NCBI RefSeq assembly: GCF_003473295.1 | Contig: NZ_QRMP01000009.1 | Coordinates: forward strand, 62,001-126,000 | Length of the DNA stretch: 64,000 nt | Source of the DNA: Parabacteroides sp. AM08-6 | GTDB taxonomy: Bacteria; Bacteroidota; Bacteroidia; Bacteroidales; Tannerellaceae | Reading direction: 5' to 3' | Part shown: piece after piece, positions 9,073-42,827 of the stretch | How the letters are laid out: each line of letters begins with the position of its first letter | How positions within the stretch are numbered: the stretch's first letter is position 1 | The notes under the pieces: model-generated | Seen by the model: only the letters and a program-made list of their open reading frames with translations | The model's database searches: none | What the model was told of the DNA's origin: nothing | Position numbers and translations under genes: made by a program

Positions 9073-9074
9073 GA

Positions 9075-26765: not shown

Positions 26766-27550
26766 AAAGAGTACATTATACAGACAGTTACCTGATGAAC
26801 CCGCAACATCCGGTGACGGTAAACATCATAGGCGCGGGCGGTACAGGCTCGCAAGTGCTGACCGGTATGGCAAGACTGGATGTCACGCTCCGTGCACTCG
26901 GACATCCGGGATTGTTCGTAACGGTCTACGATCCAGACATCGTGACGGACGCAAACATTGGGCGGCAGCTCTTCGGACCGTCGGACCTGGGACTGAACAA
27001 GTCACAATGTCTGGTCACAAGGATAAACAATTTTTTCGGAAACGACTGGAAAGCGGAGGCGAGTTTCTATCCGTCGGTATTGAAGGAGGTAAAGCGGACC
27101 GAAATTGCGAACATCACCATTACCTGTACGGATAATATAAAATCCAGACTCGATTTGTGGAACGTGCTTGCGAAAGTTCCTTCATCCTCCTATACGGACA
27201 ATAACACGCCGCTCTACTGGATGGATTTCGGGAATACAAAGACCGCCGGGCAGGTTGTACTGGGAACCGTGCCGAAGAAAATCAAACAGCCGGTTTCCAC
27301 GATGTATGAAACGGTCGGCTCACTGAAAGTCATTACCCGTTTTGTGAAATATGCGAGAGTGAAAGAAGTGGATTCCGGACCGAGTTGCTCACTGGCAGAG
27401 GCATTGGAAAAACAGGATCTGTTTATCAACTCCACGCTGGCGCAACTCGGCTGCAATATCCTCTGGAAAATGTTCCGCCACGGGATGATTGAGCATCACG
27501 GGCTGTTCCTGAACTTAGAAACGATGAAAGTCAATCCGATAGGGGTATAA
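26762..27550 (+). CDS. PRTRC system ThiF/E1-like protein
   Basis: A 262-residue protein with the Rossmann nucleotide-binding loop IIGAGGTGSQV (about residues 21-31) and the DANIGRQLF motif (about 61-69) of ThiF/MoeB/E1 enzymes, which adenylate the C-terminus of a ubiquitin-like protein. A TCTDN motif follows near residue 122. Together with protein B it suggests a ubiquitin-like conjugation chemistry in the cassette; that is inferred, not shown. Confidence 0.88.
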   Translation: MKRVHYTDSYLMNPQHPVTVNIIGAGGTGSQVLTGMARLDVTLRALGHPGLFVTVYDPDIVTDANIGRQLFGPSDLGLNKSQCLVTRINNFFGNDWKAEASFYPSVLKEVKRTEIANITITCTDNIKSRLDLWNVLAKVPSSSYTDNNTPLYWMDFGNTKTAGQVVLGTVPKKIKQPVSTMYETVGSLKVITRFVKYARVKEVDSGPSCSLAEALEKQDLFINSTLAQLGCNILWKMFRHGMIEHHGLFLNLETMKVNPIGV

Positions 27551-27648
27551 GACAGGCAAAAGCAAATATGAAAAAGTGGAACCGCCTTGCCGGAAAGGTT
27601 TCTGCAAAATAATATCATTCAATTCATTGCGGAATGAGAAATTATTTG

Positions 27649-27656
27649 TACTTTTG
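27649..27656 (+). promoter_or_regulatory. Promoter ahead of the fimbrial operon
   Basis: TACTTTTG (-7 box) with TTG at 27627-27629, a 19-base spacing, a good match to the Bacteroidetes promoter. Transcripts would start near 27662 with a leader of nearly 480 bases before the first fimbrial gene. Confidence 0.6.
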
Positions 27657-27743
27657 CTATTGTATTTCGAGAATGTTTTGTTAGCGATGTATGAACGGCA
27701 ATAAAAGCACATATAAATACCACCCGTATATAACAAATATTTT

Positions 27744-27784
27744 TTGTTCAGGCGGTGCTTCGTCCTATAAGACGGAGGCTTTTT
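27744..27784 (+). terminator. Hairpin with T-run in the fimbrial leader
   Basis: A GCTTCGTC/GACGGAGGC stem with one bulge and a short loop is followed by TTTTTT. It is about 85-120 bases after the predicted transcription start, so it may be an attenuator or the end of a small RNA. Confidence 0.45.
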
Positions 27785-28051
27785 TCGTGTCATTACTGTT
27801 TCGTAAAGTTGTTTCCATATCCGGAAAATATTTGTCCGATGCGCTTAAAATGTGTGCCGATTATTTGGATATTCAGATAATTCGGTTACTCTCTCTCTCT
27901 CTCATGGCTACGCGCGTCAATATACAAAATATTCCTTAAATACCAATCACTTACGGAGAGTCCGTTTTCCGGAATATCTCTCCTTTCCACGTTATTATCC
28001 GAACCTTTACATGCCGCCCTCACCAATCGGGGGCGCGTATCGTCATATCCG

Positions 28052-28115
28052 TCGGCGGTGTATGCCGGAGCATGGAACAACAATGCCCGCATACGCCGCC
28101 GATATGCTTTTTTAT
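28052..28115 (+). terminator. Strong hairpin with T-run just before the fimbrial genes
   Basis: Stem TCGGCGGTGTATGC/GCATACGCCGCCGA (one wobble or mismatch), loop of about 23 bases, then GCTTTTTTATT. It lies 29 bases before the first fimbrial ATG. It may stop readthrough from the leader, so the operon could be controlled by antitermination. Confidence 0.6.
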
Positions 28116-28143
28116 TAACCCGTAACAACAAATCTTATCAAAT

Positions 28144-29358
28144 ATGACAGTGATAAAACGAATATTATTGACGGTCTTTCTTGCCGTTACAGGATTGTCG
28201 CTTTCGGCACAGGAGAAGCCGGACTCCACTGCCTACCGTTTCCGGTTCGTGGCAGAGAACGATATGTTCTTCTCCCCGTGGAGCGGCAACGGACAGGAAC
28301 TTGAGCGGTTGCTTGCAGCCATCGACGAACACCGCCCCGCCATCGAAGCCGGACAAATGTATCTTTTAGTGACAAGCTACGCTACGGACGGCAACGAAGA
28401 ACAGACTGCGGCGCAAGTGGCAAAGACACGCCGCAATCGTGTGAAGTCGGAACTGATTGTGCGCGGCAAGATAAAAGAGTCGAACTTCGTCACCGACCAG
28501 TTGTTTGACGAAGCCTATACGGACGGGAACGGAAAATCCCTGCACAACATGGTCATCGTCACCCTCCCTGCCTCTGTTGAGAAAGTGGCGGAGATAGCCG
28601 GTGCGGAAGCCGCCGCCAGAGTGGAAGCCTATAACAAAGAGGTGTCTGGCGAGGCGGAGCGCGAACGTATGGCAGCGAAAGAGCAGGCAAAAGCGGAACA
28701 GACTGCCAAGGAAAAGGCAGAACAGGAGCGTATCGCTGCAGAGCAGGCAGCCCGAGAGAAAGCCGAGGCGGAACGGATGGAGCGTGAACGCATGGCAGCG
28801 GAACAAGTCGAAAAAGAGCGTCTGGAAGCGGAGGAACAAGCCCGCCTGCAAGCTGAAGAAACGGCAATAGCCACCCCGTATCATTTTGCCTTGCGTGCCA
28901 ACCTCCTGCGTTGGGCAACCCTCACTCCCGATTTGGGTATCGAGTGGCGCATCAACCGCCATGTGGGTATTGCCGTGAACGGTACGTGGGCTTCATGGAG
29001 CTGGGACGACAAGAATCGCCGCTATGCCCTTTGGGAAGTGGCTCCCGAAGTGCGCTATTATATAGATAAGGAGAAACGGGGCTATATCGGCGCGATGTAC
29101 AAGGCAGGGCAGTTCAATTACAAGCTGTCGGGAACAGGCCGTCAGGGCGACCTCATGGGCGGTGGTATCGTCGGAGGTTATCAGCTGAAACTCAACAATG
29201 CCCTTTCTCTTGATTTCAACCTCGGCATCGGCTATATCCATGCCGACTATGACAAGTATGTGGTCATCAACGGCGTGAGGGTAAGGCGCGGCAGCGAAAC
29301 AAAGAACTGGTGGGGCCCCGTCTCGGCGGGTGTCACCCTGGTGTGGAACATCTTTTAG
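28144..29358 (+). CDS. DUF3575-type outer-membrane protein of the fimbrial operon
   Basis: A 404-residue protein: signal peptide (MTVIKRILLTVFLAVTGLSLSA), a domain with EFVAENDMFF-like start and conserved turns (about 25-160), a long Ala/Glu/Lys coiled coil (about 165-235), then a C-terminal beta-barrel-like domain (LRANLLRWATLTPDLGIEW to the final VTLVWNIF). This layout is common for the first gene of Mfa-type fimbrial operons. An outer-membrane or periplasmic assembly role is inferred. Confidence 0.8.
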   Translation: MTVIKRILLTVFLAVTGLSLSAQEKPDSTAYRFRFVAENDMFFSPWSGNGQELERLLAAIDEHRPAIEAGQMYLLVTSYATDGNEEQTAAQVAKTRRNRVKSELIVRGKIKESNFVTDQLFDEAYTDGNGKSLHNMVIVTLPASVEKVAEIAGAEAAARVEAYNKEVSGEAERERMAAKEQAKAEQTAKEKAEQERIAAEQAAREKAEAERMERERMAAEQVEKERLEAEEQARLQAEETAIATPYHFALRANLLRWATLTPDLGIEWRINRHVGIAVNGTWASWSWDDKNRRYALWEVAPEVRYYIDKEKRGYIGAMYKAGQFNYKLSGTGRQGDLMGGGIVGGYQLKLNNALSLDFNLGIGYIHADYDKYVVINGVRVRRGSETKNWWGPVSAGVTLVWNIF

Positions 29359-29373
29359 CGGAAAGGAGGAACA

Positions 29374-30264
29374 ATGAATACAACGATAATCATACGACAG
29401 ATAAAGGAATATACGGGAGCATACGGAAAGGCTTATACCTTATTATATCTAATAGGTGCGGTGACCATACTGACCTCGTGCGTGAAGGACGACCTCTATG
29501 ACACGCCGCACCCCGACCGTGGGGCGGTGGTCGTAACCACGGACTGGAGCGGAAAGAGCACCGAGGCGGACATACCGCAGGCATACACACTGCGCATCGG
29601 CGGGAGGGAACAGAACGTGAGCGCGGCGACCAACGTGTTCGACGCGCTGCTCGCGCCCGGTGGCTACGGTCTGACGGTGTACAACTCCCCGGAGGGGATT
29701 AGTATCGACGGAAACAAGGCAACGGTGAATCCGGTGGATCTGACGGGTGCAATAGAGCCGCACCCCGGCTACCTCTTCGCCTCGCACCAGGACATCAGCG
29801 TCGTGGCGGACGACACCCTGCACGTCACCGCCCCGATGAGACAATACGTGCGCAGGCTCGACATCGAACTGACCGCCACGGAAGGCGACTACAGCCGTGT
29901 ACAGTCGGCTACGGCAACGCTCTCCGGCGTGGCTTCGGCAGCGGATATGGCAACAGGCGACCGGAGTGTAGCGGCACAAGTAACAAACGCTTTCAGGCAG
30001 GACGACAACAAGTTCACAATCTTTTTCCGACTGCTCGGCATCGTCCCGACGGAAACGCATACGCTGACGGTGGACATCACTTTCAACAACGGTGACACGC
30101 AGCGGGTAGTGAGCGACCTTACCGAGGCCATAAGGGACTTCAATAACGGCACCAAACCGGTTAAACTCACGGGTAATCTGCTTTTGCCCGTAGAGGCCGG
30201 GGTAACGGGCGCAACCATCACGGGCTGGAACGAGGTAGAAAGCGGCAATGGGGATGCTAACTGA
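29374..30264 (+). CDS. FimB/Mfa2-like fimbrial anchor lipoprotein (DUF5119 type)
   Basis: A 296-residue protein with a lipobox (LTSC near residue 36) after a hydrophobic segment. The mature part has alternating beta-strand patterns (VVVTTDWSGKSTE, then LTGAIEPHPGYL) as in the DUF5119/FimB-Mfa2 group, which terminate or anchor fimbriae at the outer membrane. It starts 15 bases after the upstream stop. A start nearer the hydrophobic segment is possible. Confidence 0.78.
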   Translation: MNTTIIIRQIKEYTGAYGKAYTLLYLIGAVTILTSCVKDDLYDTPHPDRGAVVVTTDWSGKSTEADIPQAYTLRIGGREQNVSAATNVFDALLAPGGYGLTVYNSPEGISIDGNKATVNPVDLTGAIEPHPGYLFASHQDISVVADDTLHVTAPMRQYVRRLDIELTATEGDYSRVQSATATLSGVASAADMATGDRSVAAQVTNAFRQDDNKFTIFFRLLGIVPTETHTLTVDITFNNGDTQRVVSDLTEAIRDFNNGTKPVKLTGNLLLPVEAGVTGATITGWNEVESGNGDAN

Positions 30265-30294
30265 CGATAAATATTTTAATCAAAAAACAAGATT

Positions 30295-31326
30295 ATGACA
30301 ATGAACATGAGGTTTTTCATTATTGCAGCAGCGGCAACGCTATTGGCTGCGTGTACACAAGAGAAGGAGGTACAGAACAATCCGGTGGAAGCACGAATCA
30401 CGGCAGGCGTGAGCGGGCCGAAGACCCGTGCTGTGGACAACGGGTGGAACGCCGACCGAATCGGCGTGATGGTGGTGGATGCCCCTGGCACGACCACGAC
30501 CATGGGCGGCAAGTACAAGAACGTGGGATACGCGACCACGAGCACCGGCACCAACGCGGACTTCACCCCGATGACGGCGGGTGGCGGCATCTTCTTCGAG
30601 GATGCTTTCCTCGAGTTTACTTTTGCCGCCTACGCGCCTTACGCATCGGGCGCAAACGCCTCCACCCTGCCTGGTACAGACGGGAAGATTACGGTAAATA
30701 CAAGCAACCAGCCCACGACCACGGAACAGGAGAAGGTGGACTACATCCATGCCACGGGAGCCAAGGCCGATAAAGACAGCCCGACCGTCAGCTTCACGGA
30801 CAACACCGCCGCGGGCGGCAGCGACTGCTCCTTCAAGCACAAGATGGCCCGTCTTATCCTCAAGGTGCAGGTGTCGAACACCGACGGTTTCGACGACACT
30901 GCCGTGCTGGAATTCGCCGACTACAAGCTGGGCGGCCTGGTTCACGAGGGAACGTTCGATGTGAAGACCGGTACCGCCGCGACCGCGGGCAGCGTTGTGA
31001 GCGACTGGATGTTACGCCAGTGCACCGGTGCCCCGAAGACGGCCACGGACAAGTGCGTGGCAACCTTTGACGCCGCCACGGGCGTGATGACTTTCACCAT
31101 GATCCTGCTCCCGCAGACACTCGCCAACGCTTTGGTGCTTGAGATATCTCCCGATGACGGGGAATACCAGAGCTACTCCAACAAGGACATGATCAAACCC
31201 GCGTTGGAGGCCGGTTATTCTTATACCTACACCATCACGGTGAAGAAGACGGGGCTGACCCTTAGCGGAAGCACCATCGAAAACTGGAACGACGGTGGTA
31301 GCCATTCGGGTGATGCAAAAATGTAG
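30295..31326 (+). CDS. Fimbrillin family lipoprotein
   Basis: A 343-residue fimbrillin. Lipobox LLAAC near residue 20 after a short hydrophobic signal; the strand-rich middle contains KTRAVDNGW (about 45), typical of FimA/Mfa1 propeptide sites where an Arg-gingipain-like or lipoprotein-processing cut exposes the donor groove. The C-terminus ENWNDGG matches the conserved end of fimbrillins. It is likely the main shaft subunit. Confidence 0.85.
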   Translation: MTMNMRFFIIAAAATLLAACTQEKEVQNNPVEARITAGVSGPKTRAVDNGWNADRIGVMVVDAPGTTTTMGGKYKNVGYATTSTGTNADFTPMTAGGGIFFEDAFLEFTFAAYAPYASGANASTLPGTDGKITVNTSNQPTTTEQEKVDYIHATGAKADKDSPTVSFTDNTAAGGSDCSFKHKMARLILKVQVSNTDGFDDTAVLEFADYKLGGLVHEGTFDVKTGTAATAGSVVSDWMLRQCTGAPKTATDKCVATFDAATGVMTFTMILLPQTLANALVLEISPDDGEYQSYSNKDMIKPALEAGYSYTYTITVKKTGLTLSGSTIENWNDGGSHSGDAKM

Positions 31327-31447
31327 TGTGTCTGAAAGCCACTGCCGTGCATCAGGCGTAAGCACGGAGGCACGCCATATATAATAAATGGTGCCACCGC
31401 CCGCGTTGCAACGGGCGGTGGCACAAAACGAAATAAATAAAGACAAT

Positions 31448-33175
31448 ATGAAAATAATAAGGAACATAGCGAGAAGGCCGTGGCCGCGCATCGGCGGCTG
31501 GTTGCCGGTTATGATGCTCATCTGTGGGGTGCTCGCTTCCTGTAGCAGTGAGGATGAAAGCACCGCGCCCCTGCCCGACGGCAAGTACCCGCTGCAACTG
31601 ACGGCGGAGGTGGCGCAGCCGCAGACCCGCGCCGCGGGCAAGGACGCGTGGACGGGCGGCGAGGAGATTAGAGTGTCACTGGAAGGCGTGTTTGGTAACA
31701 AAACATACGTGATGGACGCATCGGGCAATGCAAGCCCGAAGGATGCCGATAATGCCTTCTATTGGAAGAACACCGATGAAGCCCGCGTCAGTGCATGGAC
31801 CCCGGACATAGAATCGGAAACGGATATTTCCGACCAAAGTGGCGGGTACGCCGCTTTCGATGTCCTGTACGCCAGTGCCATAGGGCGTTATGACCAAGCC
31901 ATAAATCTCCGTTTCATCCACCGCATGGCGAAAATCGAAGTAATTCTCAAAGCTAGCGAAGGCATTACGGAAGAGGAGTTGGAGGGTGCGACCGTCACCA
32001 TTTTCGGAGACCCGCTAACGCACTCAACCGCCGGCTTGGTATCACCGGGTGACCAATCGGACGGCGAGATAAAGCCCTATTACGATGCCGCAACGAAGAA
32101 ATACGAGGCGTTAGTGCCGCCGCAGGATATGACGGGCAAGCCGCTCATCCGAATCAGCATAGGCAGCAATGACTTTACCTACACTCCCGAAACAGAAGCT
32201 GCCGGCAAATTTGGGTTTTTCGGTGGCAAGCGGTATGCCTACACCATCACCGTGAAAGCAAGCGGAATAGACGTGCAGGCGGTGACCGGTGGCACGTGGG
32301 TTGCATGTGGCGAGGAGAACGTCACCTCCAAAAAGGTAAAGCAAAGTTTCACAGCTGACGAACTTAAAATCGGCGACTACTTCTATTCCGACGGGACTTG
32401 GAGCGACGGCGGCCTGCGCAAAATCTATACTGACGGCAGTATGAAGATAGCAAGCCCCAAGCCTGCTCCCGTACTCCAAACAAAAAGTGAAATAGAAAGA
32501 AGAGTCATCGGTATCGTTTTCCAGACGGACCCGAGCCGTATCGGCACTGCCGAAAAGTCCAAATTGGGCGAAGGGAATGTGCATGGCCTTGTAATGGCCT
32601 TAAAGAACACCGCAACAGATATCCAATGGAGCCATGAAGAGAATAATTTGGAAGACGTGAAAGACTGCTGGTCCAAGTCTGAAATCTACTCTGACATCAG
32701 CGGTCTGCACAATTACACCAAGATTCTTGACCATGCAAATAGTATCGGTGGAATTGAGGCATATCCGGCCTTCGAAGCCGTCGAGAAATGGAATGATATG
32801 TACAGTATAAATGAATACCGCCCACCTCGTAATACCACAGGCTGGTTTATTCCTTCCTCCGGTCAGTGGTGGGACATCCTTCAGAATCTGGGCGGTTGTC
32901 CGGCTATGGCGGATAAAGGTCAGCAAACCTCGTCGGATTCCGGTGATTTCCGTTGGCTAGGTCAAGGCGATGTTCCAGCTGCCTTGAATGCTTGGATGAA
33001 TAAAATTGCAGCCGACAGCAAGAATGATTTTACCACCGGTGACCGTTTTTGGTCGTCATCGGAGTTAAATCAGTTCCGCGCACGGAACTGGAACGTGTAC
33101 TCCTCTGATTACGTGTGCTGCGACTTTGTCTATAAGAAATGGAGTAACGCTGTCCGTCCCGTCCTTGCTTTCTGA
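31448..33175 (+). CDS. Fimbrillin-like adhesin with C-type-lectin-like C-terminus, non-matching to the template
   Basis: Start MKIIRNIARRPWPR at 31448; lipobox GVLASC near residue 32. Residues ~40-295 are fimbrillin-like (PQTRAAGKDAW near 60); the remainder is a formylglycine-enzyme/C-lectin-type fold with GWFIPSSGQWWD near 480 and the end FWSSSELNQF...VRPVLAF. Its end resembles the DGR target next door at protein level (WSSSE, VRPVLAF), but the DNA differs from the template at many non-A sites, so the present template did not write it. It may be a retired target or served by a template elsewhere. Confidence 0.8.
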   Translation: MKIIRNIARRPWPRIGGWLPVMMLICGVLASCSSEDESTAPLPDGKYPLQLTAEVAQPQTRAAGKDAWTGGEEIRVSLEGVFGNKTYVMDASGNASPKDADNAFYWKNTDEARVSAWTPDIESETDISDQSGGYAAFDVLYASAIGRYDQAINLRFIHRMAKIEVILKASEGITEEELEGATVTIFGDPLTHSTAGLVSPGDQSDGEIKPYYDAATKKYEALVPPQDMTGKPLIRISIGSNDFTYTPETEAAGKFGFFGGKRYAYTITVKASGIDVQAVTGGTWVACGEENVTSKKVKQSFTADELKIGDYFYSDGTWSDGGLRKIYTDGSMKIASPKPAPVLQTKSEIERRVIGIVFQTDPSRIGTAEKSKLGEGNVHGLVMALKNTATDIQWSHEENNLEDVKDCWSKSEIYSDISGLHNYTKILDHANSIGGIEAYPAFEAVEKWNDMYSINEYRPPRNTTGWFIPSSGQWWDILQNLGGCPAMADKGQQTSSDSGDFRWLGQGDVPAALNAWMNKIAADSKNDFTTGDRFWSSSELNQFRARNWNVYSSDYVCCDFVYKKWSNAVRPVLAF

Positions 33176-33204
33176 ACTATTTGCCTATTTAGTCCTTTAA
33201 GAAT

Positions 33205-34767
33205 ATGAAGATACAAAACATATACCACCTCTTGCAAGCTGCGTTGCTCCTGCTGCTTGTATCCTGCACGCAAGAAGAGTTCCCTGCCGTGCAAGACAAG
33301 GCGCAGCAACTGACAATCTCCGTTACCGATGGCGGATATACATCGGCTGTTGAGAATATGAAAACCCGTGTCGAGACCCGTGCCGTGGAGAACGGCTACA
33401 CCACCGAGTTCACCGAAGGCGATGCCTGCGGATTCTACATGGTGCGCGGCGGAAAGCCGGTTTATTCAAACGTGAAGCTGACAGCCGAAAAGGATGCCGC
33501 CACGGGCGGCATCATGTGGAAAACCGACGGTACGACGCTTGCCGCCGGAATGGATGGAGAGAGCTACTACCTCTACTATCCTTATCAGGCGGACATGGCG
33601 GGCAAGACTGCCACACCTGCGGAGGGGGCGGTCATGACCGATGCCGAGTTCTTCAAGCCGCTCATTGATGGCTGGCAACCCGGGGACGACCAGAGCACCC
33701 ATGCCGCTTACACCGCCTCCGACCTGATGACAGCCGGAGGCTCAACGACAGGGACGGGCAACACCATCCACCTCTCTTTCGCCATGAAACACCGCATGGC
33801 GTTGGCCGTCATCGAGATGCCGAAGACCGTTTACAAGTTTATCGACGCGAATGTTCCCGACTACACCGTGGGGGCAGAAGCTACGTTCACAGGCACCGCC
33901 AAGCCGCTGCGCATGGCTGACGGCACTTACCGCTACTTGGTGCACTCGTCCATGCCGACTATCGAGGGATGTTATGACGGGGGGAACAGGGAGTTTACCA
34001 TCACCACGTCCGCGTCCCATCCTATCGTAGGGGAATACAAGAGATACAAGGTGGACGGTGCGCAGGCTATGGAAAAGAATTATAACTTGCAGATGGGCGA
34101 CTACCTGTGCAAGAATTCCGATGGTAATTGGTATATTATCCCCGGTGAGGAAATGCCGAATGAGGAGTGCATCGCCATCGTGTTCCATGCCGGTCATCAC
34201 GAAAACGATGCCTCCGATTACTCCGCCACCGGTATCGGTCAGCAGAAGTGCCACGGCTATGCCATTGCCTTGCAGGATGCCACAAACGGTTATTGTCAGT
34301 GGGGCGTTTACGGAACCGAGTTGGGTTGCTGCCCCACGGATGGAAGCGGAAACATACAGAACAATTACTCTACACCTGACATCGACTGGAGCGGCTACGC
34401 CTGGACACAGAAAATCATCGCCGCTGCCGGAGGTACGGGCAACTTGAATGCCGCCGAAGATTCCGGTTATCCTGCCACCTACTATGCTGTTGTGGATTAT
34501 GCGAGCAAAGTCCCGTCCCCTGCCAATAGCAGCGGTTGGTTTCTTCCTTCTATCGGTCAGATGTGGAATGTTTATCAAAACCGTACTTCTTTGTTTGACG
34601 GCAAGACAGTGGTATCAGGCTTAAAGTCCGATTGGTACTGGTCCTCCTCGGAGGGCTACCGCAATCCGGCGTACCGCGCTCTTTATGTGAGTGTGGTCAG
34701 CGGCCGCGTGAGCAACGACAATAAGAACCGCAGGGATAGCTACGTGCGTCCGGTCTTGGCTTTCTGA
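33205..34767 (+). CDS. DGR target: variable fimbrillin-like adhesin lipoprotein
   Basis: A 520-residue lipoprotein (signal MKIQNIYHLLQAALLLLLVSC, lipobox LVSC). The N-terminal ~290 residues are fimbrillin-like (KTRVETRAVENGY; FAMKHRMALAVIE). The C-terminal ~220 are a C-lectin/sulfatase-modifying type fold with GWFLPSIGQMWNVY near 450 and the variable region from YWSSSEG to the end VRPVLAF. Twelve residues there differ from the template-encoded ones. It probably forms the diversified tip of the fimbria, exposed for binding host, phage or bacterial ligands; the ligand is unknown. Confidence 0.88.
   Translation: MKIQNIYHLLQAALLLLLVSCTQEEFPAVQDKAQQLTISVTDGGYTSAVENMKTRVETRAVENGYTTEFTEGDACGFYMVRGGKPVYSNVKLTAEKDAATGGIMWKTDGTTLAAGMDGESYYLYYPYQADMAGKTATPAEGAVMTDAEFFKPLIDGWQPGDDQSTHAAYTASDLMTAGGSTTGTGNTIHLSFAMKHRMALAVIEMPKTVYKFIDANVPDYTVGAEATFTGTAKPLRMADGTYRYLVHSSMPTIEGCYDGGNREFTITTSASHPIVGEYKRYKVDGAQAMEKNYNLQMGDYLCKNSDGNWYIIPGEEMPNEECIAIVFHAGHHENDASDYSATGIGQQKCHGYAIALQDATNGYCQWGVYGTELGCCPTDGSGNIQNNYSTPDIDWSGYAWTQKIIAAAGGTGNLNAAEDSGYPATYYAVVDYASKVPSPANSSGWFLPSIGQMWNVYQNRTSLFDGKTVVSGLKSDWYWSSSEGYRNPAYRALYVSVVSGRVSNDNKNRRDSYVRPVLAF
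34636..34760 (+). repeat. DGR variable region (VR)
   Basis: 125 bases aligned without gaps to the template at 35368-35492. There are 19 differences in 13 codons, and every one is at a template A (42 A in total). The last 24 bases, containing GCTACGTGCGTCCGGTCTTG, are identical and would act as the initiation-of-homology site. The VR ends 7 bases before the stop codon. Confidence 0.96.
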
Positions 34768-34799
34768 CCTATTTACCTATTCAATCTATTTATCTATTT

Positions 34800-34845
34800 G
34801 CGGCGTAGCCGCTCATTTAAAAGATGGAATACCCGCGAAGCGGGT
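34800..34845 (+). other. Two short hairpins downstream of the VR
   Basis: GCGGC-GTA-GCCGC at 34800-34812 and ACCCGC-GAA-GCGGGT at 34831-34845, within 40-85 bases after the VR. In studied DGRs a small stem-loop just after the target's initiation site promotes retrohoming; these are candidates for that role. Confidence 0.5.
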
Positions 34846-34871
34846 CGGAAAAATTTTTGAAAAATCGAGTT

Positions 34872-35246
34872 ATGGCATTATCCGAAGAATTACCCCTATA
34901 CCGCGACACTTACCGGTTGTTGAACAACCTGTTGATCCTGACGCAGGATTTTCCGCGCTTCTTCCGCTACAGTATGGGCAGCCGTATGGTGGATTTGACT
35001 TTGGATATGCTTTCTCTGATTTACAAGGCGAACAGCAGCTATGAAAAAGTGGGCGTATTGACCGAATTTCTCGACCGTTACCGCATGTTGCAGATGCTTT
35101 TCCGCGTATGTGTGGAGCAGAAGGTCATTACCGAGCGCAAATACGCCTCGTTCGGGCTGCTGTTGGAGAAGATAGGCAAGCAGGCTACGAGCTGGAAACA
35201 ATATAACGAACGCGGAATGAAGAAACAGGAAGATAAAAGGCAATGA
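34872..35246 (+). CDS. avd: Avd, DGR accessory variability determinant
   Basis: The start MALSEELPLYRDTYRLL at 34872 is preferred; the frame extends 16 codons upstream through a hairpin. The 124-residue product is basic and helical, with repeated patterns of the four-helix-bundle Avd family (LLNNLLILTQDFPRFFRYSMG; EKVGVLTEFLDRYRML). Avd binds the reverse transcriptase and template RNA and is needed for mutagenic retrohoming. It lies between VR and TR, a usual location. Confidence 0.9.
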   Translation: MALSEELPLYRDTYRLLNNLLILTQDFPRFFRYSMGSRMVDLTLDMLSLIYKANSSYEKVGVLTEFLDRYRMLQMLFRVCVEQKVITERKYASFGLLLEKIGKQATSWKQYNERGMKKQEDKRQ

Positions 35247-35367
35247 TTTATCAGTCGGGATTCGGGCGGTCAAGGCTTCCCGAAGCGAACTGTTTATTAT
35301 TGAAAAAGGGTTGTCGGCAGGCTTTCCTCGTGCAGGGAGGCTCGCAAAGACAAAAACAGACAACATT

Positions 35368-35492
35368 TACTGGTCCTCCTCGGAGAACTACAACAATCCG
35401 GCGAACAACGCTCTTTATGTGAATGTGAACAACGGCAACGTGAACAACAACAATAAGAACAACAGAAATAGCTACGTGCGTCCGGTCTTGGC
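35368..35492 (+). repeat. DGR template repeat (TR)
   Basis: 125 bases, in the non-coding gap between avd and the reverse transcriptase. Sixteen of 41 codons in the VR frame are AAC or AAT, so A-mutagenesis can give many amino acids but no stop codon. The end GTGCGTCCGGTCTTGGC is followed by CTTTTCA in TR and TTTCTGA in VR, where the two diverge. Confidence 0.96.
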
Positions 35493-35535
35493 CTTTTCAA
35501 TAAAAACTTTACGATAAACAAAATGGTATTGCGAT

Positions 35536-36798
35536 ATGGAGTTACAACAAAGTCTTTTCACGGATGAGGAACTCGGAGGCATTCCGTTGGAGGATGTTTT
35601 CGAGGCGTATTTCGAGTGCCGTAAAAAGAAACGCAATACCTGTAATGCCCTTGCCTTCGAGAGCGATTACGAACGCAGGTGTGTGGAACTGTGGCGGGAA
35701 ATCAATGCCGGCACATACCGCCCTTCGCGTTCCATCGCTTTCATTATCAACAAACCCGTGAAACGGGAGATTTTCGCTGCAGACTTCCGCGACCGTGTGG
35801 TACACCACCTCATAGCCCGCAGGCTCGTTCCGCTTTTGGAAGAGAAGTTCATCAATGACAGCTACAGCACCCGCAAGGGAAAAGGTACGCTCTATGGCAT
35901 CGAACATGTGGCGGAACATATCCGGCTCTGTTCGGAAAACTACACGAAAGAGTGCTACATCCTGAAAATAGACATCCGTTCGTTCTTCATGAAAATATCG
36001 AAGAGGCGGCTGTATGACCTGACCGAAGAACTCTTGCACGAACGCTACGGGGGAAACGACCTGGCGATACTGCTCTATCTGCTCCGTGAGACTATATTCA
36101 ACCGTCCGGAAAAGAACTGCATCCGCAAGACGCCTCCCCAAAGCTGGCGCGGATTGCCCAAAGACAAGAGCCTGTTCCATTCCGACGGCTCGTGCGGACT
36201 GCCTATCGGCAACCTGACAAGCCAGTTGCTCGCCCTTAACTTCCTGGACGGACTGGACCATCTCATCAGCGAAGAATGGGGCGTGAAGCACTACGGCAGG
36301 TATGTGGACGACATGGTGCTTGTCCATCCCTCGAAAGAGCACCTGATAGAGGTGAAAGCGAAAATTGCCGGCTGGCTCTCCGAACACGGGCTGTCGTTGC
36401 ACCCGCGCAAGATCTATCTGCAACATTACACGAAAGGTGTCCTGTTTATCGGAGGGATGATACTTCCGGGGCGGAAATACCTGAGCAACCGCACAGTCGG
36501 CTTCTGCTACGATGCCATCGACCGCCTGAACCGCTTGGCGGCAGGCTCGCCCGATTACGTGAAAACCCACGGGGAGGAGTTTGTCAGTACGATAAACTCC
36601 TATTTGGGAATGATGCGGCATTTTTCCTCCTACAACCTGCGGTGCAAGGTCATGAGCCGTATCGGTAAGGAATGGTGGCAGGTCATCTATTTTGCCGGAC
36701 ACTTGGAGAAAGTCGTGTTGAAAAAACGGTACAGACAGATTGAATGCAAAAAAGAGGAGATTTGTAATGAAATCAAAGAACTGAGGAGGACTGTATGA
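35536..36798 (+). CDS. DGR reverse transcriptase
   Basis: A 420-residue reverse transcriptase. GLPIGNLTSQ near residue 222 carries the DGR/retron-type motif in place of the QGxxxSP of other reverse transcriptases, and YVDDMVLVH near residue 256 holds the catalytic aspartates. It copies the template RNA with errors at A. The start is 43 bases after the TR. The stop overlaps the next gene by 4 bases (ATGA at 36795). Confidence 0.96.
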   Translation: MELQQSLFTDEELGGIPLEDVFEAYFECRKKKRNTCNALAFESDYERRCVELWREINAGTYRPSRSIAFIINKPVKREIFAADFRDRVVHHLIARRLVPLLEEKFINDSYSTRKGKGTLYGIEHVAEHIRLCSENYTKECYILKIDIRSFFMKISKRRLYDLTEELLHERYGGNDLAILLYLLRETIFNRPEKNCIRKTPPQSWRGLPKDKSLFHSDGSCGLPIGNLTSQLLALNFLDGLDHLISEEWGVKHYGRYVDDMVLVHPSKEHLIEVKAKIAGWLSEHGLSLHPRKIYLQHYTKGVLFIGGMILPGRKYLSNRTVGFCYDAIDRLNRLAAGSPDYVKTHGEEFVSTINSYLGMMRHFSSYNLRCKVMSRIGKEWWQVIYFAGHLEKVVLKKRYRQIECKKEEICNEIKELRRTV

Positions 36799-37271
36799 CA
36801 GAACGCGAATTGATACAACAACAGCAGGAACTCGGCGACAGCCGTTTCCTCGTGACCCGGTCGGGCAAGTTTTTCTCCGCCTACGGTTGCGGGGCTTTCG
36901 CCTTGGCACGCGCCACAGGCTACCGTGTCATGCACCGGCAGCGTAAAGGCGGAAATTTTGTGCTGACCACAGGATTCCCGGAAAGCCATGTAGGGAAAGT
37001 GATGGAACAGATAATAGCCGCCGGAGGAAAAATCGACCGGCAGGACGACGGTTCTTTCGTCTTTTCCGGCATAGACGGCAGCGAAGCGGAGGCGTTGGTC
37101 TCCATCCCCGAAAAAACGGAGGGCGGGCAAGACCGCAAGGGCAGCAAAAGTTCGTATGACAACAGCCTGCAGGCTATGATACTCTCGTTCGACCTCTCTC
37201 GCTCCACCCCTATGGATGCCATGAACTTTATAGACCTGCTGCAAAAGAGGATTTACGATACAGATGTTTAA
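36795..37271 (+). CDS. Probable DGR-associated MutS-like accessory protein
   Basis: A 158-residue protein. The N-terminal ~90 residues (LIQQQQELGDSRFLVTRSGKFFSAYGCGAF) look like the mismatch-recognition domain I of MutS, which has been reported as an accessory of DGRs; I call it by resemblance, not by search. It overlaps the reverse transcriptase start-stop by 4 bases and overlaps rteA by 8, tying the DGR to the regulatory genes. A role in choosing or resolving mismatches between cDNA and VR is possible. Confidence 0.7.
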   Translation: MTERELIQQQQELGDSRFLVTRSGKFFSAYGCGAFALARATGYRVMHRQRKGGNFVLTTGFPESHVGKVMEQIIAAGGKIDRQDDGSFVFSGIDGSEAEALVSIPEKTEGGQDRKGSKSSYDNSLQAMILSFDLSRSTPMDAMNFIDLLQKRIYDTDV

Positions 37272-39624
37272 TATGACCTTGTTATATATGAACAGAAACA
37301 TACCCCTGCAAGCTAAAATCCTCTTCGGCTATATGATGTTAATGGCGGTCATCATCAGCATGGCCGCTATTCTTTTCCATGAACACGCACGCCTTCGGAA
37401 AATCGAGGCCGACACCTACGAAATCAGACAGGCACGCCGTGACATATCCGAGATACACCGCAACATCACGGTACTCGCCTCATTGGGCGAGAGCGTCATC
37501 GCTTGGGAGGATGAGGACTACCATGCCTACCAAACGAGACGGCTGAGGGTGGACAGCCTGCTGCAAATGCTGCAAACGAACCATAGCTACATATTCGGTC
37601 TGTCGCAGATAGATACCCTGCAACAGTTGTTGGCGGACAAGGAGACACACCTGCACCAAATCATGCAGGTGTTCCACCGGCAGGACAAAGCCGACAGCCT
37701 GCTGGTGAACCATCTGCCAGAAGCTGCAAGGCAAGCGACACAGACCCGTACCGTCGTGCAGAAGAAGAAAGGCATAGCCGGATGGTTCGGCGGCAAGGAA
37801 ACGGTGCAAGTGCCCGCCTCGTCCGACAAGCTCCGCTCGCTGAACGAACAGCTTATCGCCCTGCAAGCGGAGCGGATACGCAACATGGAGAATTACACCG
37901 ACAGCCTGCGCATCCGCAACAGGGAACTGAACCGCAAACTGTTCGCCCTGCTCGGTAACATCAGCGACCATGCACAAGCCGCCTTCCGGGACAGGGAAGA
38001 GCAGATAGCCCAAGCGCACCAACGCTCCACCTCCATCATCACCGGGCTGATCATCGCCGCCATCCTCCTGCTGGTGTTCTCGTACCTGATTATCCAGAAA
38101 CATCTGAAACGGGATTCGCTGCTCAGGAAAAAGATGGAGGGTGTCATTGACCGGAATAATGAACTGCTGGAAACGCGTAAAAACGTCATACTTACTATCT
38201 CGCATGACATACGCGGCCCCCTGAACATCATTTACGGATATGTCGAACTGGCAAAAGATACCCGGGACAGGAAACGCAGGAATCACCATTTGGAAAATAT
38301 CGAAACGGAGTGCAAACATATCCTGCACCTGCTGAACAATCTGCTGGACGTGTACCGCCTGAACGAGTCCAAGGAAACCTGCAACAATGTACCGTTCAAC
38401 CTTAATGATCTGTTGGAACGTATTGTGACCGGATTTTCACATATTGCCAATAATAAGGGAATCATATTCCACCATGATTCCCAAAATACGGATGTCGTAC
38501 TGTGCGGTGACATGGATCGTATCTCTCAAATTATAGACAATCTACTGACGAATGCTGTGAAGTTTACAAACGCCGGTATGATACAGTTCAATGTCCGATA
38601 TGAAAATGGAATGCTTTATATAGAAATAAAGGATACGGGAATCGGTATGGATCAAGACACCGTTTCGCGTATCTTCCGTCCGTTTGAACGCCTGTCGTCT
38701 GAGGCGAATGCCGAAGGTTTCGGGTTGGGCTTGCCCATCACAAAAGGATTGGTCAAACTTTTAGGAGGCAGCATTGATGTGGAAAGTAAAATCGGGCATG
38801 GCAGCACATTTCGTGTATCCCTGCCGTTAGCGGTTTCCAATGAGAAAATCAATAGTGAAGCGTCGGCAGTTCCGCAAGACCGTCTGCCATTGCCACAGCG
38901 CGTACTTGTTATAGACAATGACACATTACAACTGGAAATAGCCAAGGAAATGCTTGAACGCAACGGAGTATCGTGTACCACCTGTTCCAATGCCAAAGAA
39001 CTGGTCAATGAGATGCGTAGGCAGGATTACGACTTGCTGCTAAGCGACATACAGATGCCGGAAACCAACGGTTTTGAAATTCTGGCATTGCTTCGCAAAT
39101 CCTGCATCGGAAATTCACACACAATTCCGATAGTAGCCATGACTGCACGAGGAGAAGGAGAAAAAGAGGCATTCATAAAGGGCGGATTCACGGACTCCAT
39201 CCACAAGCCGTTTTCCATGAGAGAACTGTTGGATATGGTCTCTTCTGTGGTGTCACGCGATGTGGAAGAGTCACATACACCGGATTTTGCCACGTTCACG
39301 GCAGATGTGCTTGATAAAAGAGAACTGCTAAGAACTTTCATTATCCAGTCCGAACAAAATATGGCAGACTTGCAATCGGCAATAAAGACAGGGGACATTG
39401 AAAAGCTCCATGACATAGCCCACGAGATAAAGCCCTCGTTGGAGTTGTTACGGGCCGATGCTCCACTGGTAAAACTCCGCACAACGTTAAACGATTCTGC
39501 ATGCGATATGAATACCGTCAATGAACAGGTGAAGCTGCTGATAGGACACATCTCCGGACTTATAACAGAAGCTGAAAAGGAAATAAAGAAAATGAGCGAT
39601 GAAACAGAAGGTACTGATAGTTGA
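37264..39624 (+). CDS. rteA: RteA, hybrid sensor histidine kinase
   Basis: A 786-residue sensor kinase: N-terminal membrane helix (about 15-38), a helical extracytoplasmic sensing domain (~40-255), a second membrane helix (~260-285), HisKA with TISHDIRGPLN near residue 313, HATPase with NLLTNAVKF and DTGIGM, a receiver domain with LLSDIQMPETNG (Asp near 595), and a C-terminal phosphotransfer-like segment (DIAHEIKPSLELL). It is RteA of CTnDOT-type ICEs, upstream of its partner rteB. Several ATGs within the first nine codons are candidates for the start. Confidence 0.92.
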   Translation: MFNMTLLYMNRNIPLQAKILFGYMMLMAVIISMAAILFHEHARLRKIEADTYEIRQARRDISEIHRNITVLASLGESVIAWEDEDYHAYQTRRLRVDSLLQMLQTNHSYIFGLSQIDTLQQLLADKETHLHQIMQVFHRQDKADSLLVNHLPEAARQATQTRTVVQKKKGIAGWFGGKETVQVPASSDKLRSLNEQLIALQAERIRNMENYTDSLRIRNRELNRKLFALLGNISDHAQAAFRDREEQIAQAHQRSTSIITGLIIAAILLLVFSYLIIQKHLKRDSLLRKKMEGVIDRNNELLETRKNVILTISHDIRGPLNIIYGYVELAKDTRDRKRRNHHLENIETECKHILHLLNNLLDVYRLNESKETCNNVPFNLNDLLERIVTGFSHIANNKGIIFHHDSQNTDVVLCGDMDRISQIIDNLLTNAVKFTNAGMIQFNVRYENGMLYIEIKDTGIGMDQDTVSRIFRPFERLSSEANAEGFGLGLPITKGLVKLLGGSIDVESKIGHGSTFRVSLPLAVSNEKINSEASAVPQDRLPLPQRVLVIDNDTLQLEIAKEMLERNGVSCTTCSNAKELVNEMRRQDYDLLLSDIQMPETNGFEILALLRKSCIGNSHTIPIVAMTARGEGEKEAFIKGGFTDSIHKPFSMRELLDMVSSVVSRDVEESHTPDFATFTADVLDKRELLRTFIIQSEQNMADLQSAIKTGDIEKLHDIAHEIKPSLELLRADAPLVKLRTTLNDSACDMNTVNEQVKLLIGHISGLITEAEKEIKKMSDETEGTDS

Positions 39625-40912
39625 AGACAATATAAGTTTGTCACAACGCCAGAAAGACTGGCTTGAACAGGCGGGGTACGATGTAATGACCGCCATGCGT
39701 GAACCGGCCGCACGTGCATTGATACGCAAGCATCGGTTCGACTTCATATTGTCCGATGTGCGCTTGCCTGAAGGTGACGGAATATCGCTTTTAGAGTGGC
39801 TCACAAAAGAGAAGAAAGACATTCCATTCATAGTGACAACGGAATACGGGTCTATACCGGATGCGGTACGCGCCATCAAGTTGGGGGCAAAAGACTATCT
39901 GCCCAAGCCGGTACACCGGGAACACCTGCTTGAACTGGCGGAAGAGATATTCCGTCCGCTCGCGACTGTCCGCACGAAACCGAAAGACCTGTTCAGACGT
40001 ACCTGCCCTAAAATACTTGAGGTGGAGAGATACGCGAGGATAGTAGCCCCGTCGGATATGTCGGTGCTGATACTCGGTGCCAACGGTACCGGCAAGGAGT
40101 CCGTGGCACAGGGCATTCACGCGAACAGCGGACGTGACGGCAAGTTTTTAGCGGTCAATTGCGGAGCGTTGCCACGCGAACTTGCGGCATCCCTCCTGTT
40201 CGGACACGAGAAAGGCGCCTTCACCGGTGCGGATACGGCAAAGAACGGATATTTCGACATGGCAAAAGGCGGTACGCTCTTCCTGGATGAAATCGGCACG
40301 ATGCCTATTGACATACAGTCCATGCTCCTTAGAGTGTTGCAGGAGAATACCTATACCCCTATCGGCAGCGACAGGGAGCGGATGGCAGACGTGCGGATTG
40401 TGGCGGCAACGAATGAAAATCTGGAACGGGCCATCAAGGAAGGACGATTCCGGGAAGACCTGTACCACCGTCTGGCAGAGATGGAAATCAGGATGCCATC
40501 TTTGGCCGAGTGTGCTGATGACATTTTGCCTTTGGCGGAATTTTTCCGTGAACGGTTTTCCAAAGAACTTAAGAAAGAGACAAAAGGCTTTTCAAAAGAT
40601 GCCATATACCGACTTCGTTCTTATCGTTGGCCGGGCAATGTCAGGGAATTGCAGAACCGGATCAAACGGGCGGTGTTGCTTACGGAAACCCCTGTATTGG
40701 AGTTGCCGGACTTGAACGCAGACAGTCAGACTGATATTCGGATTACGGAGAAAACTCCGGACATATTGCCTTTGAAAGACGAAAACAGCGAGAGGGAAGC
40801 CATTGCAAATGCCCTTCAAGCGTGCAACGGGCATCGTGAACAGACCGCACGATTGTTGAATGTAAACTCTTCAACACTGTACCGGAAGATGAAGAAATAC
40901 GGGATAAGATAA
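39599..40912 (+). CDS. rteB: RteB, sigma-54-dependent response regulator
   Basis: A 437-residue NtrC-type activator: receiver (LIVEDN, SDVRLPEGDG), AAA+ domain with Walker A GANGTGKES near residue 161, GAFTGAD (sigma-54 contact) near 204 and Walker B GGTLFLDEIG near 222, and a Fis-type HTH at the end (REQTARLLNVNSSTLYRKM). In CTnDOT, RteB activates rteC, which starts excision. No rteC was found in this window. The gene overlaps rteA by 26 bases. Confidence 0.93.
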   Translation: MKQKVLIVEDNISLSQRQKDWLEQAGYDVMTAMREPAARALIRKHRFDFILSDVRLPEGDGISLLEWLTKEKKDIPFIVTTEYGSIPDAVRAIKLGAKDYLPKPVHREHLLELAEEIFRPLATVRTKPKDLFRRTCPKILEVERYARIVAPSDMSVLILGANGTGKESVAQGIHANSGRDGKFLAVNCGALPRELAASLLFGHEKGAFTGADTAKNGYFDMAKGGTLFLDEIGTMPIDIQSMLLRVLQENTYTPIGSDRERMADVRIVAATNENLERAIKEGRFREDLYHRLAEMEIRMPSLAECADDILPLAEFFRERFSKELKKETKGFSKDAIYRLRSYRWPGNVRELQNRIKRAVLLTETPVLELPDLNADSQTDIRITEKTPDILPLKDENSEREAIANALQACNGHREQTARLLNVNSSTLYRKMKKYGIR

Positions 40913-40993
40913 TCCCCGATATTCTATCTATTTCCGGCAACAGTGTTGACACAGAATATATTGAAATGATTTTTCAATCCGACTGAAATTTTG

Positions 40994-41252
40994 TAAATTT
41001 GCAAAAGATTTGGCAGGGTATAGCCTTGCCGGTCTGAAACATAGAAGAAAACCGGTGGAGGGAAAACCCCTCTGCTGATTATATAACATAAGAGCGCAAG
41101 CTTCTCGGACAGAAATCTGGTAAATTGACGTTAAAGGAGAATGATTGCGTAATGCTTATGCTATGCTCTGTCATAGCGTGGTGTTGCGTGTTCTCCTTTA
41201 GGCTTTACCAGAGCCTCTGTCTGAGTGCGTGGCTACCACGCTTCTTTTTTTA
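40994..41252 (+). ncRNA. Structured RNA with its own promoter and terminator, after rteB
   Basis: TAAATTTG (40994-41001) is a -7 box. After it come a hairpin GGCAGGGT/GCCTTGCC (41012-41030), GAGGG/CCCTC (41058-41072), and a ~120-base arm pair: CTCGGACAGA/TCTGTCTGAG (41104-41113 with 41216-41225), TCTGGTAAA/TTTACCAGA, AAAGGAGAA/TTCTCCTTT and ATGCTATG/CATAGCGT. It ends with terminator GCGTGG-CTA-CCACGC plus a T-run (41227-41251). It could be a free small RNA or an attenuating leader/riboswitch for the gene at 41264, which starts 12 bases after the T-run. Confidence 0.6.
41227..41251 (+). terminator. Rho-independent terminator before the RibD-like gene
   Basis: Six-base stem GCGTGG/CCACGC with a three-base loop, followed by TTCTTTTTTT. 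It lies only 12 bases before the next ATG. Confidence 0.8.
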
Positions 41253-41263
41253 GACGGACAGGT

Positions 41264-41680
41264 ATGGCAAGAATACAAATCATAACGGCAGTGACATTGG
41301 ACGGTTATCTTCCCGACCCGAATGAAGAGTTGTTGCAATGGGTGAAGACGGACAGCCAAGGTTTCCCGTTCTGGCACGAGAGGAGTACCTTCACGCTGTT
41401 TCCCGGCTATCCCATGCTGGACTTGATTTGTGAAAAGGACGAGAAACCGGACTCCTTTACCTTTACCTCAGAAATATCCGACCCAAAGAGCCTTGACTTG
41501 CTACACGGGCTTTCCATCTACCACCTCATTGACGAAATCATCATCTACATTCTTCCTCTGACAACAGGCAACGGTACGGACTGCCTGCATCGACTTCCGG
41601 TCAATCGTTGGAAACTTTACAGGACAGTTGCTTTCAAAAACGGGATTGTCCGTCTCATTTATCGCAAATCCTCGCGATAG
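41264..41680 (+). CDS. RibD C-terminal/dihydrofolate-reductase-like protein, short
   Basis: Start MARIQIITAVTLDGYL at 41264, after the terminator. The 138-residue product matches the RibD C-terminal/DHFR-like superfamily (ITAVTLDGYLPDP at the start), but is shorter than the usual ~170-180 residues and lacks an obvious central NADPH loop. Such genes are frequent on CTnDOT-type ICEs near the integrase; no substrate is known. It may be a degenerate enzyme or a ligand-binding protein. Confidence 0.7.
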   Translation: MARIQIITAVTLDGYLPDPNEELLQWVKTDSQGFPFWHERSTFTLFPGYPMLDLICEKDEKPDSFTFTSEISDPKSLDLLHGLSIYHLIDEIIIYILPLTTGNGTDCLHRLPVNRWKLYRTVAFKNGIVRLIYRKSSR

Positions 41681-41700
41681 TCCATTGCATCCTGCAAGGA

Positions 41701-41856
41701 AATCTTGCAATTTGCAAGATTCGCCATTTATTCATTTTTACAGCCTCAGATTTTTATTTCACTGATATACAATGTTATATCAGTTCCTCTTGGTGTCTAT
41801 CGGTGTCATTGGTACGCTGTTGGCCTTATAATATGATATAACCTGTTGCGCAACAA
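41701..41856. promoter_or_regulatory. Cluster of palindromes upstream of the HTH genes
   Basis: A perfect 21-base palindrome AATCTTGCAA-T-TTGCAAGATT at 41701-41721, an inverted repeat ACTGATATA-6-TATATCAGT at 41761-41784, and GTTGCGCAAC at 41846-41855. They precede the excisionase-like operon and could be operators or arm sites for the recombinase/excisionase complex. Confidence 0.5.
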
Positions 41857-41897
41857 GGTGTAAGCAAACGATAAGTTACACTTAAAACAGATTACTC

Positions 41898-42203
41898 ATG
41901 TTACAGATAAACAGCGAGATGTTCGCCCAAATCATGGAACGGTTCGACAGGATAGAGCGGGCATTGGAGCGTATGAACAAGCTGAAGGAATGCCTGGACG
42001 GCGACACGCTCTTGGACAACTACGACCTGTGCCGGCTGCTCGGCATCACCAAACGCACGCTGGCGCGTTACCGCCAGAAGAAGCTCGTGACCTATTACAT
42101 GATTGACGGGAGAACCTACTACAAGGCATCCGAAGTGGAGGCGTTCCTCAACCAAAAGGGCAAGTCATTGCCGGCGAGGTTCAGACATCAGCCAAATGTT
42201 TAA
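41898..42203 (+). CDS. Excisionase-like helix-turn-helix protein 1
   Basis: A 101-residue protein. An N-terminal helical stretch is followed by a MerR/excisionase-type HTH (LLGITKRTLARYRQKKLV, wing YYMIDGRTYYKASEVEAFL). It is the first of three paralogues in a row; CTnDOT has similar genes (xis2c, xis2d) at this place, which direct excision and also activate transfer genes. Confidence 0.8.
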   Translation: MLQINSEMFAQIMERFDRIERALERMNKLKECLDGDTLLDNYDLCRLLGITKRTLARYRQKKLVTYYMIDGRTYYKASEVEAFLNQKGKSLPARFRHQPNV

Positions 42204-42222
42204 TTAAAATGAAGCAAGGATT

Positions 42223-42519
42223 ATGGAAATAATATGTGTTGACAAACAGACTTTTGAAGAATTGCGTGTCCGGTTCTGTGATTTTGAGGAACGGATGACG
42301 CGGGTATGCCGTCCGGCCGAGGACCTCGGCTTGAAAAACTGGCTGGATAATCAGGAGGTGTGCGATGTGCTTCGCATCAACAAGAAGACACTACAGGTAT
42401 ATCGCAACAAAGGGATATTGCCTTTCAGCCGTATCAAGAACAAGCTGTTCTACAAGCCTGAAGACGTACAGAGATTGTTGGATTTGAATTATCACCCTTT
42501 AATAAAAAGCAGATTATGA
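42223..42519 (+). CDS. Excisionase-like helix-turn-helix protein 2
   Basis: A 98-residue paralogue with HTH CDVLRINKKTLQVYRNKGILP and wing IKNKLFYKPEDVQRLL. It follows gene 1 by 19 bases and overlaps gene 3 by 4 bases. Expected to bind att or promoter DNA as an accessory factor. Confidence 0.8.
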   Translation: MEIICVDKQTFEELRVRFCDFEERMTRVCRPAEDLGLKNWLDNQEVCDVLRINKKTLQVYRNKGILPFSRIKNKLFYKPEDVQRLLDLNYHPLIKSRL

Positions 42520-42827
42520 GCTATCATTTCTTGGACGACAAAGACCCTCGGATCGACGTGATGTTTCAAGGGCTGGAAAAAATGGAGAAGATGCTCTCCG
42601 TGATTGAGAAGATGCCGAAATCCCTCTTTAACGGTGAGCGCTTCCTCACTGACGAGGAACTCTCCAAAGTCCTGCGGGTAAGCAGGCGCACATTGCAGGA
42701 GTACCGGACATTCGGGGTGGTTCCTTATTACATGGTGCAGGGCAAGACTCTGTATAAGGAATCGGATATTCTGAAGATACTGGAGGATTCCTACAAGCGT
42801 TGCCGGGAAGAACAACGATGGGTATAG
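42516..42827 (+). CDS. Excisionase-like helix-turn-helix protein 3
   Basis: A 103-residue third paralogue: HTH VLRVSRRTLQEYRTFGVVP and wing VQGKTLYKESDILKIL. It ends before a bidirectional terminator that separates it from the converging integrase gene. Confidence 0.8.
   Translation: MSYHFLDDKDPRIDVMFQGLEKMEKMLSVIEKMPKSLFNGERFLTDEELSKVLRVSRRTLQEYRTFGVVPYYMVQGKTLYKESDILKILEDSYKRCREEQRWV

Follow-up and report, generated by a model that had tools for sequence, protein, structure and literature searches.

The 64,000-nucleotide stretch of Parabacteroides sp. AM08-6 DNA analysed here (contig NZ_QRMP01000009.1; this whole stretch is called the window, and all coordinates refer to it unless named otherwise) carries a complete diversity-generating retroelement (DGR), made up of a target gene, hairpins, avd, a template repeat (TR), and a reverse transcriptase (RT), plus a gene for a MutS-like protein (MSL). 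With a probability of roughly 0.9, we read it, from sequence comparisons, as a working or very recently working DGR that would rewrite the terminal part of a tip pilin in an Mfa-type (type V) pilus borne on an integrative conjugative element (ICE). A preliminary description had proposed an ICE-borne DGR aimed at a fimbrial adhesin; it did not mention the MutS-like gene right after the RT, a second tip gene that is nearly constant, or the exchange of cassettes at the C terminus.

Template-A differences between the two repeats

The variable repeat (VR) forms the end of tip B, which comes last among the pilin-like genes of an Mfa-type fimbrial operon. VR and TR, 125 bases each, aligned without gaps, and their identity ended sharply on both sides. 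All 19 differences between them fell on the 42 A residues of TR (13 A>G, 4 A>C, and 2 A>T); the hypergeometric chance that 19 random differences would all fall on A is 3.3e-11. In the translations, 12 residues differed, and one further A change was synonymous (AGA to AGG). A edits can create stops at just two TR codons, AAG and AGA; in AAG the A, and in AGA the first A, had not changed in any of the three VRs for which DNA was compared. Hairpins with 3-nucleotide loops were present downstream of VR and absent after TR, with folding z scores of −2.68 for the stretch after VR and +1.70 for the stretch after TR. The second hairpin falls inside the longest avd open reading frame (ORF), and homologues align from 34872. 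Both avd and RT are intact, the bAvd match of avd lies above the cut-off, and the RT translation carries GLPIGNLTSQ and YVDD; the best solved homologue of the RT is 8ub7_A, which we take to be the BPP-1 DGR RT. The preliminary description had given the same VR and TR coordinates, length, and gapless alignment, the same 19 of 42 A, the 12 differing residues near the adhesin C terminus, avd and an RT with these motifs, and candidate hairpins after VR, and all of these were reproduced here; the position of VR likewise upheld its claim of a complete DGR aimed at a fimbrial gene.

The closest comparison was with an uncultured Bacteroides metagenome-assembled genome (CANSEY010000013.1, locus L005) that carries the same ICE (window 36346-42795 at 99.9% identity and 28990-32446 at 97%) and has two target genes in tandem. 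Its two VRs differ from each other at 25 of 125 positions, all of them A in the window TR, while the 469 bases upstream are identical; compared with the window TR, one VR has changes at 21 A positions and the other at 22. A comparison of VRs among carriers of the same ICE had been put forward in the preliminary description, and in this single instance the differences between VRs were confined to template-A sites, as it had predicted.

The same pattern was seen in proteins. Among the listed homologues, 22 sequences, including the window, had the 43-residue VR end, and 18 of these were distinct (P0131, whose VR is one residue longer, was excluded). Within the first 41 codons, changes affected 278 of 432 cells at A-containing TR codons versus 2 of 306 at other codons; four A-containing codons (TAC, GAG, AAG, and AGC) never varied. 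Over the last ∼43 residues of the neighbouring tip A, 7 of 48 close homologues had one or two changes without a VR-like pattern and the rest matched the window, a control that is imperfectly matched (48 homologues at 96-99% identity versus 65-97% for the VR-peptide proteins). In a wider survey, an RT match at E 0.001 was found in 54 of 158 genomes of one genus, many of these matches weak and probably other kinds of RT. Thirty-one loci were read (one of them, L090, being the same element): nine yielded none of the expected pairs, two were excluded (L081 as tandem-like, L084 as ambiguous), and 20 remained with clear pairs. In the resulting 21 TR/VR pairs, including the window, 310 of 322 mismatches were at A and 12 elsewhere, and a hairpin followed VR in 19 pairs and TR in none. 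Between DUF3575 and MSL, the operons of L060 and L062 are arranged as in the window, with one or more extra pilin-like genes, and they carry the same hairpin, CCCGC(GAA)GCGGG.

By the known DGR pathway, Avd-RT would make cDNA from TR RNA, introducing errors at A, and this cDNA would take the place of VR, directed there by the common 3′ end and by the hairpins, which lie after VR and not after TR. The identical 3′ end of VR is, by its position, a candidate site for the initiation of mutagenic homing (IMH), a role that we assume from BPP-1. Tip B, if it sits at the pilus tip, would then display a variable patch that may bind ligands, and MSL may deal with the mismatches, a step that would be specific to this locus. 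Comparative evidence suggests that such retrohoming has occurred in the window strain.

Several observations weigh against this reading. At one C, both L005 VRs depart from the window TR in the same way, which may mean that the TR of that strain is itself different at this site; L005, however, has no counterpart of window 34929-36345, the segment holding TR. The missing segment, whose place in L005 is at 6000/6001, also comprises the rest of avd and the first part of RT; it reflects a deletion or a misassembly, so that this copy may be dead or misassembled. All changed cells of the VR peptides are reachable by A-only edits except two (in P0130 and P0132). As for tip B itself, the Lcl_C match (E 5.7e-6) scored 27 bits against a cut-off of 34.9, and the AlphaFold2 model had a mean predicted local distance difference test score of 39, so a C-type lectin fold is not established.

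The cassette might be a recent relic that formerly diversified the tip and is now silent in the window strain: a single genome cannot reveal present activity, and the assembly of the nearest relative lacks the parts just named. We consider this improbable, because non-A changes would gather in an idle VR, yet the window VR has none, and avd and RT are intact. Far less probable still is that the VR differences arose by recombination among tip paralogues instead of mutagenic homing. Recombination would bring flanking differences along, whereas the 469 flanking bases in L005 are identical beside 25 differing template-A sites, and the 18 distinct VR peptides vary at A codons with only the two unreachable cells; that C-terminal cassettes do shift between tip genes speaks in its favour.

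The fimbrial operon and exchange of C-terminal cassettes

On the + strand, the gene order is DUF3575, Mfa2, Mfa_like_1, tip A, tip B with VR at its end, the two hairpins, avd, TR, RT, MSL, and the rteA-like and rteB-like genes (Table 1). One Mfa2 and three Mfa_like_1 proteins, all above their cut-offs, are encoded consecutively on the same strand; with anchor and pilin families together, gene families and order predict the operon of an Mfa-type (type V) pilus, the Mfa-like pilin upstream of tip A probably being the stalk. The operon position and family of tip B suggest an adhesin; its best solved homologue was 4eps_A (E 7.4e-28), matched almost entirely through the pilin part, with a weak second stretch. 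Upstream of the operon lie imperfect inverted repeats of 18 nucleotides (27726-27743 and 27926-27943, 182 nucleotides apart). An invertible promoter at 27726-27943 was considered and rejected, as the same element in L090 aligns straight across. An Rfam scan of 27500-42800 gave no match up to E 0.1, a search with region 31388-37271 among plasmids gave no match, and neither did the target patterns in viral contigs.

Table 1. Features of the fimbrial-DGR module and adjoining regulatory genes in the window
Feature	Position	Strand	Evidence or remark
DUF3575 protein, first gene of fimbrial operon	28144..29358	+	Pfam PF12099, E 6.7e-37
Mfa2-type anchor pilin	29374..30264	+	Pfam PF08842, E 3.7e-9
Mfa-like pilin	30295..31326	+	Pfam PF13149, E 1.1e-50
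Tip A, second tip-like gene, C terminus near-constant, not target of window TR	31388..33175	+	Mfa_like_1, E 9.7e-23
Tip B, DGR target, 520 amino acids	33205..34767	+	Mfa_like_1, E 3.3e-13
Variable repeat (VR)	34636..34760	+	19/19 differences from TR at template A
Identical VR 3′ end, candidate initiation site (IMH) by position	34736..34760	+	No TR difference after offset 99
Hairpin GCGGC(GTA)GCCGC	34800..34812	+	Also in both L005 copies
Hairpin ACCCGC(GAA)GCGGGT	34831..34845	+	Core stem and loop also after VR in L060 and L062
avd, start 34824 or (by homologues) 34872	34824..35246	+	Pfam bAvd, E 1.5e-16
Template repeat (TR)	35368..35492	+	Near-repeat of VR
Reverse transcriptase (RT), YVDD	35536..36798	+	RVT_1, E 5e-20; 8ub7_A, E 1.2e-25
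MSL, MutS-like, 158 amino acids, start overlaps RT stop by 4 nucleotides	36795..37271	+	MutS_I, E 3.5e-6
rteA-like hybrid histidine kinase, overlaps MSL by 8 nucleotides if first ATG used	37264..39624	+	HisKA, HATPase_c, Response_reg
rteB-like sigma-54 response regulator	39599..40912	+	Response_reg, Sigma54_activat

The first tip gene of L005 follows tip A as far as window 32446; beyond that point it aligns with target positions 34171-34849 (91.5%), a stretch that extends past VR and both hairpins, indicating that C-terminal domain, VR, and hairpins arrived together and turned tip A into a target. Among the best 120 of 2306 target homologues, 22 had the VR-type C terminus and 98 the tip A type behind the target's pilin part, and among the best 120 of 2520 tip A homologues all 120 had the tip A type; as they cover these best matches only, the counts are not frequencies. 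The C-terminal domain, VR, and hairpins thus appear, from these alignments, to move as a unit between tip genes. The C terminus of tip A (FWSSSE...VRPVLAF) is tip-type and resembles a VR product; no template that fits it as a mutated copy was found in the window or in the loci compared with it. Several other constant alleles of the tip A-type domain sit behind the target's own pilin part. Cluster size was dropped as a sign of hypervariability (3670 sequences in the tip B cluster, 2410 in that of the near-constant tip A).

A MutS-like protein encoded beside the reverse transcriptase

The gene directly after RT encodes MSL, which profile alignment matched to both ends of MutS (residues 19-79 and 123-158 of 158), with hhalign probabilities of 42% and 33% for the full profile and 59% and 67% for the parts. 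MSL has the MutS domain I fold with its wedge Phe, kept in 53 of 53 MSL sequences, and lacks the Glu of the MutS FxE motif (present in 0 of 53) as well as the connector, lever, clamp, and ATPase; the protein resembles MutS but does not qualify as one. Its tail was assigned from the profile alignment with shuffles, two predicted helices, and one weak family match among six proteins (E 0.12), the structural comparison of the MSL model having covered residues 1-92 only. MutS subunits associate through a C-terminal helix-turn-helix tail. In a profile search of solved structures, MutS (E 0.013) and a designed protein (0.014) scored alike, and Foldseek with the MSL model gave nothing at 0.001 or better, MutS coming first at 2.2e-3. 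Two MSL-like proteins, P0023 and P0025, carry precomputed Pfam labels RecA (PF00154) and PF02033 and are fusions or artefacts.

For MSL, 148 genomes yielded 11 matches, 9 of them within 2 kb of a DGR RT match; a search for MSL among phage records gave no match. Being a MutS_I domain protein beside a DGR RT, the window protein is an MSL as defined for DGR accessories, a term for which Wu et al. 2018 is reportedly the source. MSL is described as a DGR accessory with PF01624 in the portions of PMC10053308 available to us, and the window locus shares with it the MutS_I protein beside the RT; the second match of the window MSL, that of its tail to the MutS C terminus, has no counterpart in those portions. 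Nor did literature pairing DGRs with MutS or MSL, as far as its accessible text goes, describe a MutS tail in MSL, which we do not claim to be unpublished.

What MSL does can be suggested only with caution. Tentatively, and at rather less than even odds, it could be the DGR's own mismatch-repair decoy, a MutS reduced to domain I (Phe kept, Glu and signalling middle gone) and a C-terminal tail, which would keep a new VR from being repaired back, either by covering homing mismatches or by pairing with host MutS, since a domain that reads mismatches without signalling repair would protect new VRs; in parallel, the target site (C-terminal domain, VR, and hairpins) would move as a cassette between tandem tip genes, so that one TR gains or loses targets. 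According to the accessible part of PMC12875486, a DGR reconstitution in E. coli deleted mutS, which was expected to help preserve DGR substitutions. The lost Glu and the mutation load are against the decoy or neutral: the changed fraction of TR A residues averaged 0.38 with MSL (9 pairs) and 0.42 without (12 pairs; no tblastn match within the stretch read), showing no difference (P 0.64). We give an even chance to MSL not being a decoy but a structural or nucleic-acid-binding homing helper (acting, for example, on cDNA or the hairpin) or a factor that positively recruits repair, with which the missing Glu, the equal changed fractions, and the modest hhalign probabilities are consistent.

The conjugative element and its cargo slot

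The element is a Bacteroides ICE, with genes for conjugation, relaxase, and integrase functions. The left part of the window encodes TraK, TraJ, TraG, MobB, and MobC, each above its curated cut-off, together with a topoisomerase and PRTRC proteins; two tandem tyrosine recombinases (42894-44201 and 44218-45441, − strand) lie near the element's right part, and from 51.8 kb onward there are genes for NAD kinase and PdxJ. Carriage of the DGR by an ICE, as first described, is borne out by these genes. The fimbrial-DGR module fills the space between a PRTRC ThiF gene (ending at 27550) and the rteA-like gene (37264), and it may be co-transcribed with the kinase and response regulator genes, which we presume to be rteA and rteB.

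Sixteen regions upstream of rteA homologues from other genomes were compared, with ∼10 kb read in each, and no avd, RT, or MSL was seen in them. In L152, a homologous ThiF is followed after ∼0.5 kb by rteA with no module gene between; in L155, a Tet(Q) ORF reaches the start of the rteA match (an rteA homologue only 33% identical); and the same position holds an RND permease in L142 and FeoB in L154. The ThiF-rteA gap is therefore a slot for cargo, and the fimbrial-DGR operon is one of its occupants. Also upstream of rteA homologues, L153 encodes a VgrG-related protein (8650-9513) and L146 an AAA ATPase with distant similarity, far under the cut-off, to the IteA anti-phage family (8676-9968). 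CTnDOT is a Bacteroides ICE type, and the window element, compared through L155, shares with it Bacteroidetes-type TraG/J/K and MobB/C and an rteA-rteB-like pair with cargo directly upstream; the fimbrial-DGR operon takes the position of tetQ.

The order target, avd, TR, RT is shared with the phage BPP-1. In that DGR, by the available text of PMC3240598, a hairpin downstream of VR and not of TR, as in the window, is required for efficient homing; phage hairpins have 7- to 10-bp stems and 4-nucleotide GRNA loops, whereas those of the window have 5- to 6-bp stems and 3-nucleotide GAA/GTA loops. The two systems differ further in that the window DGR serves a bacterial pilus on an ICE instead of a phage tail fibre, and adds the MSL gene. 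DGRs that diversify tip pilins in Bacteroides, a class that the preliminary description had called known, are indeed in print (PMC12632263, in the part available, citing Macadangdang et al. 2024), and the window DGR is likewise of this kind; the published account of those loci may already cover MSL, the movement of cassettes, and the rteA slot. Transfer of a DGR among Bacteroides on a 42.6-kb fragment, perhaps a conjugative transposon or phage, is reported in the accessible text of PMC3521204.

The locus would be a natural case of adhesin diversification able to travel between gut bacteria. The two tip genes of L005, identical beside VR and different inside it only at template-A sites, provide direct comparative evidence for diversification, for which the neighbouring tip A serves as a control, and MSL makes testable how DGRs may keep host mismatch repair from undoing their changes.
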